NCBI RefSeq assembly: GCF_014058425.1
Contig: NZ_CP049366.1
Location: 1,736,001 to 1,800,000, forward strand
Reading direction: 5' to 3'
From: Companilactobacillus pabuli
Lineage (GTDB): Bacteria > Bacillota > Bacilli > Lactobacillales > Lactobacillaceae
DNA: 64,000 nucleotides
Both the position numbers and the translations under genes were made by a program. This document shows, one piece after another, positions 15,665 through 61,316 of this stretch; position 1 is the first letter of the stretch, and every line of letters starts with the position of its first letter. A model generated the notes under the pieces. The model did not search any database, was not told the DNA's origin, and saw only the letters and a program-made list of their open reading frames with translations.

Positions 15665-15827
15665 GTCGTCCGTGAAAATCCTGTGGCTGGCTGGAACATG
15701 GCTGACACGATTTTGAGCTTTTGCATGGCCCCAAAGACGCAAAATCTCAAAACTCGGTCTTTCACTAGGCAATAAATTGCCAAGAGAAATTTAGCCATTG
15801 AGCCGCCACAGGATTTTCACTCCCGAC
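15665..15827 (+). repeat. Structured intergenic repeat, copy A (full length)
   Basis: Full copy of the window's covarying repeat family. Closing stem GTCG (15665-15668)/CGAC (15824-15827); TCC/TCC internal loop (15669-15671 and 15821-15823); perfect 16-bp stem 15672-15687 with 15805-15820; 6-bp stem ATGGCT (15698-15703)/AGCCAT (15793-15798); hairpin 15711-15724 with 15739-15752 holding a single C-T mismatch; hairpin 15760-15789. It lies between ald and alr. Short ORFs across it are by-products of the repeat. Confidence 0.85.
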
Positions 15828-22374: not shown

Positions 22375-22474
22375 TCTATGTCGCTCCTTTGCCATAAATC
22401 TTTTACAGAAATATAGATTAAATTACTAACAGTGTCTAATAATATCATGAGTTAGCTAATTATTCAACACAATT

Positions 22475-32427: not shown

Positions 32428-32589
32428 GTCCTCCATAGCAAAGAAAATTTGGCTGGAACGTAGTGGGCACGACTTGGAGCCTTTGCTAAGACCAAAACCG
32501 GGCAAAGTCTTCAAGCTCGGCCTTATTCTAAGCAACAAGTTGCTAAGAATAATTTCACTACTGAGCCAATTTTCTTTGCTATTCCGGAC
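32428..32589 (+). repeat. Structured intergenic repeat, copy B (full length)
   Basis: GTCC (32428-32431)/GGAC (32586-32589) closing stem, TCC/TCC loop, outer stem 32435-32452 with 32566-32582 (17 bp, one bulged T), GTAGTG (32460-32465)/CACTAC (32556-32561), hairpin 32473-32486 with 32502-32515 holding the C-T mismatch, and hairpin 32523-32552. It starts 18 bases after the glpD stop. Confidence 0.85.
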
Positions 32590-32629
32590 TAGATAGTGAT
32601 TTTCAATTTTTTATATGATCAAACAAATA

Positions 32630-32690
32630 AGCATCTATTCAGATAATGGCAGCCGTTAATCGACTATATCTGAATAGATGCTATTTTTTT
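32630..32690 (+). terminator. Strong terminator-like hairpin in the repeat spacer
   Basis: A 16-bp perfect stem, AGCATCTATTCAGATA (32630-32645) with its complement at 32667-32682, followed by seven T residues. It is part of the duplicated unit shared with 46.8 kb and would terminate glpD transcripts. Confidence 0.85.
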
Positions 32691-32731
32691 AGTTTGAATT
32701 ATTTGAAATAAATAATAAATGTCGTTATCTA

Positions 32732-33208
32732 GTCGGGAGTGACAACTTTGTGGATGCTCAGTACTGAAATTTTACTTAGCGATTTATCGGTTCTTATCAT
32801 AGTTTGGTTATATAAAAATGCAGAGAAGTTCCATTTTCAATGTATTAGTTGTATGTAAGTTTACTTTTTGAATTAAACAAAATGAATAATAGAACTAGGA
32901 TTTAGTCTGGAACACAAGCCCTGTGATGGCTCAGCCGCCAAATTACTGTTAGTGCTTTAGCACTTACAGTAAGGCCTAGTTTTGAGATTTTGCGTCTTTG
33001 GGGCCATGCAAAAGCTCAAAATAGTGCCGGCAGCGTTCCAGCCAATCACAGGGCTTGTGTGGAAGACGGCAATTAACACTAACCAATTTTTAGCAAGAAC
33101 CAATTTATTGCTTAGTGAAAGGTCAATCTTGAAGATAATTCCCGGTTTTGAAATTGGCTTAAAGTTGTGCCTGGTACGTTCCAGAGTCCACAAAGCCGAA
33201 CGGACGAC
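32732..33208 (-). repeat. Structured intergenic repeat, copy C (interrupted by copy D)
   Basis: Ends are GTCG/CGAC (32732-32735 and 33205-33208) with GGA loops inside; outer stem CTTTGTGGA (32746-32754) with TCCACAAAG (33187-33195). The second inner hairpin is split by about 300 bp that includes copy D and an AT-rich segment; the insert is bordered by inverted GGTTCTT-type ends near 32780 and 33095. No gene is supported anywhere in 32411-33338. Confidence 0.72.
32905..33067 (-). repeat. Structured intergenic repeat, copy D (nested in copy C)
   Basis: GTCT (32905-32908)/AGAC (33064-33067), GGA loops, perfect 16-bp stem 32912-32927 with 33045-33060, 6-bp stem GCCGCC (32934-32939)/GGCAGC (33029-33034) with one wobble, hairpin 32980-32993 with 33008-33021, and a perfect hairpin 32943-32972. 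All stems are kept although most bases differ from other copies. Confidence 0.87.
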
Positions 33209-46629: not shown

Positions 46630-46794
46630 AATCCCACCTCAATCCTCATAATATTATCTCTAAGAACCCCCTTAGTTACTAGCAATTAGCTTACAAAAAA
46701 ATCTAACGTAAGGCAATTGATTCTAAAGTTAGATTAAGATACCACTACCGACTGAATAACGACATTTATTATTTATTTCAAGTAATTTAAACTA

Positions 46795-46853
46795 AAAAAA
46801 TAACATCTATTCAGATATAGTCGATCAATGGCGGCTATTATCTGAATAGATGC
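46795..46853 (-). terminator. Terminator-like hairpin in the repeat spacer
   Basis: Stem around CATCTATTCAGATA (about 46804-46817) with TATCTGAATAGATG (46838-46851); seven T residues follow on the minus strand (46794-46800 region). Same orientation relative to its element as the hairpin at 32630-32690. Confidence 0.75.
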
Positions 46854-46894
46854 TTATTTGTTTGATTCTATGAAAAATTGAAAATCACTATTTA

Positions 46895-47043
46895 GTCCGG
46901 AATAGTAAAGAAAATTGGCTCAGTAGTGAAGTTATTCTTAGCAACTTGTTGCTTAGAATAAGGCCGAGCTTGAAGACTTTGTTAGCAAAGGCTCCAAGTC
47001 GTGCCCACTACGTTCCAGCCAAATTTTCTTTGCTACGGAGGAC
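46895..47043 (-). repeat. Structured intergenic repeat, copy E (full length, shortened loop)
   Basis: GTCC/GGAC ends (46895-46898 and 47040-47043), GGA loops, outer stem 46902-46918 with 47019-47036, CACTAC/GTAGTG stem, and both inner hairpins. The terminal loop of the first hairpin is about 12 nt shorter than in copy B while its stem is untouched. Confidence 0.84.
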
Positions 47044-60996: not shown

Positions 60997-61160
60997 GTCG
61001 TCCGTTCGGCCCTGGAAAACGCTGGAACGCTGTGGGCACGACTTGGAGCCTTTGCTAAGCCCAAGTTCGGGCAAAGTCTTCAAGATCGACCTTTCACTAG
61101 GCAATAAATTGCCAAGTGAAATTTCACGGCTGAGCATTTTCCAGGGCTCTCACTCCCGAC
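60997..61160 (+). repeat. Structured intergenic repeat, copy F1 (full length)
   Basis: GTCG (60997-61000)/CGAC (61157-61160), TCC/TCC loop, outer stem 61009-61019 with 61137-61147, GCTGTG (61029-61034)/CACGGC (61125-61130) with one wobble, hairpin 61042-61055 with 61071-61084 (C-T mismatch), hairpin 61092-61121. It stands between the CPBP-like gene and the acyltransferase. Confidence 0.86.
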
Positions 61161-61231
61161 TAGATAGTGGATTTTAACTATATTTCAATTAACTTTAATT
61201 CAATACTATCAAGCTAAAGAAACGAAATCTA

Positions 61232-61273
61232 GTCGGCAGCGTTCCAGCTACCCACGGAAATTTTACGGACGAC
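61232..61273 (-). repeat. Structured intergenic repeat, copy F2 (truncated)
   Basis: Inverted partner of F1, 71 bp away. It keeps GTCG/CGAC, one TCC loop strand, the 5' outer arm and the GGCTGGAACGCTG-type block (as AGCTGGAACGCTG), then jumps to the 3' end. With its flank it makes a 20-nt inverted repeat with F1 (60986-61005 and 61265-61284, one mismatch). The rest of 60871-61316 is AT-rich and without a gene. Confidence 0.75.
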
Positions 61274-61316
61274 GGTATCTTAATAACCAAACCTGCATTT
61301 GGAGGGATTTTTTTTT

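Follow-up and report, generated by a model that had tools for sequence, protein, structure and literature searches.

Structured repeats of Lactobacillaceae as probable modules of MITE-like elements with ISL3-type ends and terminator hairpins among their targets

Results

The window, by which we mean the whole 64,000-nt stretch of Companilactobacillus pabuli DNA that was analysed, contains six copies of a structured repeat of ~160 nt. All six copies named in the original prediction lie where it had placed them, and the observation is confirmed and proved to be understated. Core module B (32428–32589, plus strand) is the left half of a convergent pair, separated from core C by a spacer (32590–32731) in which we recognize by eye a hairpin of its own, GCATCTATTCAGATA / TATCTGAATAGATGC. 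Core C had been called interrupted, and it is indeed split into two minus-strand parts (32732–32788 and 33102–33208) by a 313-bp nested mobile element (32789–33101) that has the ends GGTTCTT/AAGAACC, sits in the hairpin-3 loop of C and carries core D (32905–33067, minus strand). The same loop is used in core A (15665–15827, plus strand), which is uninterrupted and empty of the nested element in this genome and in the related genome G153; in the relative G154, a mobile element of the nested sub-type occupies it, with the 8-bp duplication AATAAATT. Core E (46895–47043, minus strand) has a left partner reduced to a remnant near 46741–46753. Core F1 (60997–61160, plus strand) is present as predicted but makes up no more than the left half of a convergent unit between two divergent genes; its inverted right partner (approximately 61225–61287, minus strand) is truncated by an internal deletion that kept the ends and lost the hairpins. 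A near-perfect hairpin, CATCTATTCAGATA / TATCTGAATAGATG, is present in the spacer between B and C (32630–32690) and in that of the E unit (46800–46860) and forms a further module.

The predicted fold of F1 has a free energy of −71.3 kcal/mol (z = −5.2), and comparison of copies shows how its helices change. In 43 copies from the C. pabuli genome, aligned by sequence alone (alignment A2), 34 of 51 predicted pairs change on both sides, and the closing GTCN/NGAC stem covaries as first proposed, with 28 G-C, 14 C-G and 1 U-A pairs. The same holds for 47 of 51 pairs among 41 cores from 29 other genomes and 10 genera, where 95.4% of cells pair as compared with 64.1% after shuffling and 33–44% when partners are slid; this alignment of cores from other genomes was fitted to the covariance model, and alignments A3 and A4, fitted to model R1, lean to its structure. 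Set within these changing helices are mismatches that stay fixed. The C-U mismatch, which lies in hairpin 2, is found in 42 of 43 copies here and 39 of 41 in other genomes, the A.A of hairpin 3 is unpaired in 41/43 and 36/39 elsewhere, and the G.G at the junction is unpaired in all 43. The TCC/TCC internal loop cannot pair in any of the 43 copies, although the invariance claimed for it fails in other genera. By eye, the sequence conserved across genera is roughly (G)GCTGGAACG..GTGGGCACGACTTnGAGCC, GTCTcAAGCTCGGCCTT and AATTTCAC..CTGAGC.

Because the helices change by compensation while their internal mismatches stay fixed, selection on the multi-helix fold itself is strongly supported, in this genome and across 10 genera, as the original prediction had argued from far fewer copies. 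Correction processes can make long inverted repeats more nearly perfect, and helices could seem compensatory if template switching during replication corrected the palindromes of a fold that is not under selection. We consider this very improbable, since such correction would also erase mismatches, yet A.A, C.U, G.G and TCC/TCC remain unpaired in helices that otherwise change freely, and the counts of fixed mismatches already contradict it. Fixed mismatches inside changing helices argue instead for selection on a three-dimensional fold.

The repeat is abundant well beyond the window. Searching the 2.5-Mb genome with model R1, built from the 43 copies of alignment A2, gave at least 114 matches at E ≤ 0.01 with 150 of 1,094 candidates scored; 104 of these matches measure at least 141 nt, and the abundance is far beyond chance. 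Along the chromosome, copies are dense at 0–0.1 Mb and 1.7–2.4 Mb and sparser at 0.7–1.5 Mb. Within the genus, 34 of 36 genomes carry the repeat, with 5 to at least 87 matches each; across the family it occurs in 33 of 151 sampled genomes (C. pabuli counted) and 11 of 40 genera. Under filters stricter than those of the family sample, 12 of 295 genomes of the order match, all of them Lactobacillaceae, and the sole match among 398 genomes of the class is C. pabuli itself. An exact-pattern scan of the genome collection returned 103 stretches, every one titled Lactobacillaceae, from Companilactobacillus, Lacticaseibacillus, Schleiferilactobacillus, Levilactobacillus, Pediococcus, Lactiplantibacillus, Limosilactobacillus and uncultured Lactobacillus. 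In two congeners, G159 and G179 (80 kb of each examined, loci L192–L199), we also saw a core variant with an extra hairpin at about one model match per 3 kb.

The original prediction did not recognize the family, and we likewise found no described counterpart. A search of the window against Rfam gave no match for the repeat, and the F1 region gave a single match at E ≤ 5 (E = 4.6), far under the gathering score, so a known Rfam family was rejected. The window does match Rfam elsewhere, at a ribosomal protein L31 leader of Firmicutes (22384–22416, minus strand). Phage and plasmid sequences gave no blastn match to the repeat queries, and presence of the repeat on phages or plasmids was rejected for that reason. 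No such repeat family is described for Lactobacillaceae in the literature searched.

The cores are arranged as halves of larger units. In the C. pabuli genome, 34 of 36 neighboring pairs are convergent (+−), the two −− pairs are the nested C/D composite, and neither ++ nor −+ occurs. Elsewhere the pattern is similar, with 33 +− and 3 −− pairs (36 in all) in the named genomes and 10 +− and 1 ++ (11 in all) in other genomes; 61 of 133 cores in the named loci have no detected partner. The outer flanks share the inverted end GGTTCTTTCTTAAGTTAGG, and an 18-bp form, GGTTCTTTCTTAAGTTAG, occurs 24 times in the C. pabuli genome with up to two mismatches, against no occurrence of a reversed control. Both ends were recognized in 16 of 80 units, at an end-score threshold of our own choosing; these 16 are 281–528 bp long and include one (2181810–2182252) whose left end is of the nested type.

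A 7-bp target duplication, perfect in three cases and with one mismatch in five, borders eight of the 16 two-ended units, against an expectation of 0.4% from swapped flanks for matches this close; the other eight show no clear 7-bp duplication. Flank identity at 7 bp is 0.69, compared with 0.35 for swapped flanks, and among lengths of 5, 6, 8, 9 and 10 bp a single unit, at 5 bp, reaches one mismatch or fewer. Such duplications argue against an association with REP/RAYT systems, which use a Y1 transposase. Pediococcus units have different ends (CTAAAGGTTGAAAG) and, by eye, 7-bp repeats as well, such as CTTCTAT at locus L117. We recognized no transposase by eye in the reading frames of eight further end-bearing loci. 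With terminal inverted repeats, target duplications, short length without a transposase and a related insertion sequence (IS) with matching ends, the units have the features of MITEs. The reading of the repeats as structured modules of MITE-like, non-autonomous transposons, usually two facing modules inside inverted ends, is well supported by sequence comparison.

Modules appear to have been exchanged among units. Under crude text rules, the outer stem, the 6-bp stem and the two hairpins are found in many combinations, with B-type outer stems joined to two types of hairpin 2 and D-type outer stems to four; the total of 39 combinations is indicative only, as the rules left 6 of 102 cores without a class and gave some labels as '?'. 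The F1 site is occupied in C. pabuli, G153, G154 (as a remnant), G159 and G179, by units that differ in type or carry a third hairpin. Gene conversion between copies would be the simplest account of this mixing.

A candidate source of mobility is an IS of the ISL3 family. A search over 36 congeners revealed one intact IS with matching ends, in the single genome G170. This 1,971-bp element has the ends GGTTCTTTCTCAAGTTTGGTTATAA, agrees with the unit consensus at 20 of its first 22 bases and has a 7-bp duplication, CATCTGA; it lies in a terminator-like hairpin (−10.5 kcal/mol). Its 608-aa product scores 226.7 bits against the NCBIfam ISL3 transposase model (cut-off 180) and matches Pfam DDE_Tnp_ISL3, and no core module was detected within it. 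A second ISL3 copy, in G176, is broken into two reading frames that were scanned as separate pieces, and plasmids gave no blastn match to the G170 element. The ISL3 family has a target duplication of 8 bp; the main units and the G170 element have 7 bp, and the nested sub-type alone has 8 bp.

We found no transposase with unit-type ends in the C. pabuli genome, where the two ISL3 matches on contig 2 lie without such ends, and recognized no autonomous relative by end sequence in this and two close genomes (30 of 44 matches plus one more examined as loci). Eight short chromosomal ISL3 copies in C. pabuli were considered as mobilizers of the main units and rejected, as their ends diverge from those of the units after ~6 bases. 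These eight elements are near-identical to one another, have 8-bp duplications by eye and in several cases sit at the T-run of a terminator. Ends, duplication length and type of target link the units to the long-form ISL3 IS, and the link is well supported by these comparisons; we infer that a transposase of the G170 type or a relative would mobilize them in trans.

Comparison of filled and empty sites indicates where the units land. At an empty site corresponding to 1127725–1128250, G153 keeps an intact predicted terminator, AAAAAAGAGCTCGATTC-TTGTG-GAATCGGACTCTTTTTT, whose loop falls within the duplicated CTTGTGG. At a second (633004–633518), G153, G154 and G156 have an intact predicted terminator with the unit absent from the loop. 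Insertion into the loop of an apparent intrinsic-terminator hairpin is thereby settled for these two loci. More broadly, pairing between the outer flanks reaches the level of the top 5% of swapped flanks in 8 of 16 units and falls short of it in the other eight, which gives statistical support in half of the units for insertion into a predicted terminator hairpin or similar palindrome. At the gene end where G153 retains a simple terminator, the terminator-like hairpins of other congeners differ (loci L327, L329 and L331), and terminators may turn over quickly there.

The units hold no fixed position relative to genes. In the named loci, 97 merged units were placed, 8 of them in ORFs (crude caller) and 19 beyond the outermost called ORF, which were dropped; the 70 in intergenic gaps comprise 45 co-directional, 18 tail-to-tail and 7 head-to-head cases, against 146, 38 and 57 for gaps without a core. 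Divergent gaps are depleted (p = 0.012) and tail-to-tail gaps are in excess at p = 0.076. F1 is one of the head-to-head cases, between divergent genes and away from gene ends. This variation in place and orientation bears out the earlier view that the repeat is not a cis-riboswitch.

The scarcity of units between divergent genes (7 of 70, versus 57 of 241 background gaps) would also be expected if the modules were built-in terminators carried by the elements, like SPRITE or terminator-like repeats, and the spacers do hold a hairpin flanked by A/T runs. However, cores in the C. pabuli genome are not followed by a U-run, their usual 3′ neighbor being TAGATAGT, and F1 lies between divergent genes, which makes this explanation improbable. 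A further alternative is that the copies are stand-alone structured or regulatory RNA genes, acting in trans and multi-copy by chance. Very strong covariation and internal-loop sequence conserved over 10 genera would suit such genes, but inverted ends, target duplications, empty sites and nested insertions would not, nor would match numbers that range among congeners from 0 to at least 87, the variable gene neighborhood or the promoter-like sites within 100 bases, which face inward in 21 of 106 cases and outward in 35 of 106. We judge it about as improbable as the terminator explanation.

What the fold does is harder to say. A full unit is predicted to form a single folded body (−209 kcal/mol, z = −12.4) in which the split terminator makes the outermost stem, and this had raised the idea of a fold that spares the terminator. 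Structure prediction pairs the two terminator arms with each other in 7 of the 8 native units; for these seven, pairing also persists in 35 of 35 shuffles that leave the ends intact and in 31 of 35 in which everything was shuffled. With the 3′ arm not yet synthesized, one of eight units has a 5′ terminator arm that is freer than in 11 or more of 12 shuffles, and four of eight reach the same mark for the inverted-end arm. These modeled tests gave no clear support for terminator sparing.

Strand comparisons were similarly even-handed. Outside fixed columns, G.U and A.C occur at 69:35 in the C. pabuli genome and at 35:37 and 61:94 in the other-genome sets; fixed G.U columns number two in the former and three in the latter. 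Predicted stability favors the sense strand in only 23 of 102, 31 of 118 and 10 of 39 cores (cores outside 150–170 or 125–185 nt were left out), the antisense strand usually being slightly better. In these models a sense-strand RNA is not singled out, and neither strand is; a slight antisense advantage is what one would expect if convergent pairs yield transcripts with one module in sense and one in antisense, or if the folding molecule is DNA.

Selection could act on the fold as DNA, with an extruded hairpin or cruciform serving as a landing pad or protein-binding site, like REP sequences that attract ISs. Nested elements occupy the hairpin-3 loop, related ISs and MITEs occupy terminator-like loops, the strands differ little in how well they fold and, in other genomes, G.U does not exceed A.C outside fixed columns, all of which suits a DNA fold. 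Fixed G.U columns and finely conserved mismatches, in contrast, exceed what a landing pad needs, and no main-type unit was found inside a module among the units examined. We regard the DNA-hairpin explanation as possible, if on the unlikely side, and rank it close behind a folded RNA. A DDE transposase requires double-stranded ends only, and the mismatches resemble RNA internal loops; for these reasons we lean towards a fold that acts after transcription, as an RNA domain, rather than in transposition, and this is the least certain step in our account.

Discussion

Because the ends resemble those of an ISL3-family IS and are accompanied by target duplications and empty sites, we describe here a mobile repeat with a conserved fold rather than a set of stand-alone RNA genes. 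The explanation that we consider probable as a whole is that these are MITE-like structured modules, moved by an ISL3 transposase and inserted into terminator loops, with a selected fold that may act as RNA. Two structured modules would face each other inside the inverted ends of a unit, which an ISL3-family transposase of the G170 type or a relative would move in trans. Insertion into the loop of a terminator hairpin or similar palindrome would let both arms survive and cut no gene; modules would then mix by gene conversion at conserved blocks, and read-through from a neighboring gene would transcribe the fold as a folded RNA domain. A bolder extension, which we think rather unlikely, is that the transposon family has acquired and carries from genome to genome across Lactobacillaceae a functional RNA domain that, once landed in a terminator, works on the transcript concerned, as a portable 3′-end regulator.

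The original prediction thus stands in its central points, namely selection on structure, no known RNA family and no cis-riboswitch. It had also held that descent from an IS would count against it, and this applies in part: the modules belong to MITE-like elements, which have ends that match those of an ISL3-family IS, target duplications and empty sites.

We see several reasons for interest in this family. It is a repeat family without description in the literature searched, abundant in a family of food and gut bacteria, and the constraint on its fold is like that on known functional RNAs. A further reason is the clear example that it provides of terminator-hairpin loops serving as landing sites for a transposon and elements derived from it. 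Finally, annotation pipelines and RNA-discovery scans could mistake the modules for riboswitches.

Among known systems, the ISL3 family is the nearest for the mobilizer. The G170 element resembles it in a transposase above the NCBIfam ISL3 cut-off, ends beginning with GG and a target duplication, and the present system differs in the length of that duplication (7 bp here versus 8 bp for the family) and in its MITEs without transposase. REP units are far shorter than the modules described here, and REP sequences are reportedly linked to tyrosine transposases, whereas the ends and duplication of the present units fit an ISL3 DDE transposase. In one account, REP/BIME elements are paired inverted palindromic units in mosaic arrangement whose hairpins serve as transposition targets (PMC1525189). 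The present units are alike in paired inverted units, mosaic arrangement and hairpins as targets.

Bacterial MITEs are short, folded elements without transposase that have direct repeats and inverted ends shared with ISs, and they are described as mainly IS-derived (PMC10969869). The present units are like them in each of these structural features and differ in having as their interior a conserved module of several helices that the IS with matching ends lacks. BOX, RUP and SPRITE are small, high-copy interspersed repeats of Streptococcus pneumoniae and some related streptococci; BOX has a modular build, both BOX and RUP fold tightly, carry paired inverted ends and give rise to target duplications, and the repeats are inserted into one another and over-represented between convergent genes (PMC3049150). 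The present family is similarly small, high-copy and folded, with inverted ends, target duplications and mutual insertion, and its depletion between divergent genes parallels their over-representation between convergent ones. It differs in one fold that covaries over 10 genera, in convergent pairs of a ~150-nt module and in terminator loops as a frequent target. Overall, the repeat family joins the known MITE-type elements and is distinguished by an unusually constrained fold, a frequent terminator-loop target and a tie to ISL3-type elements.
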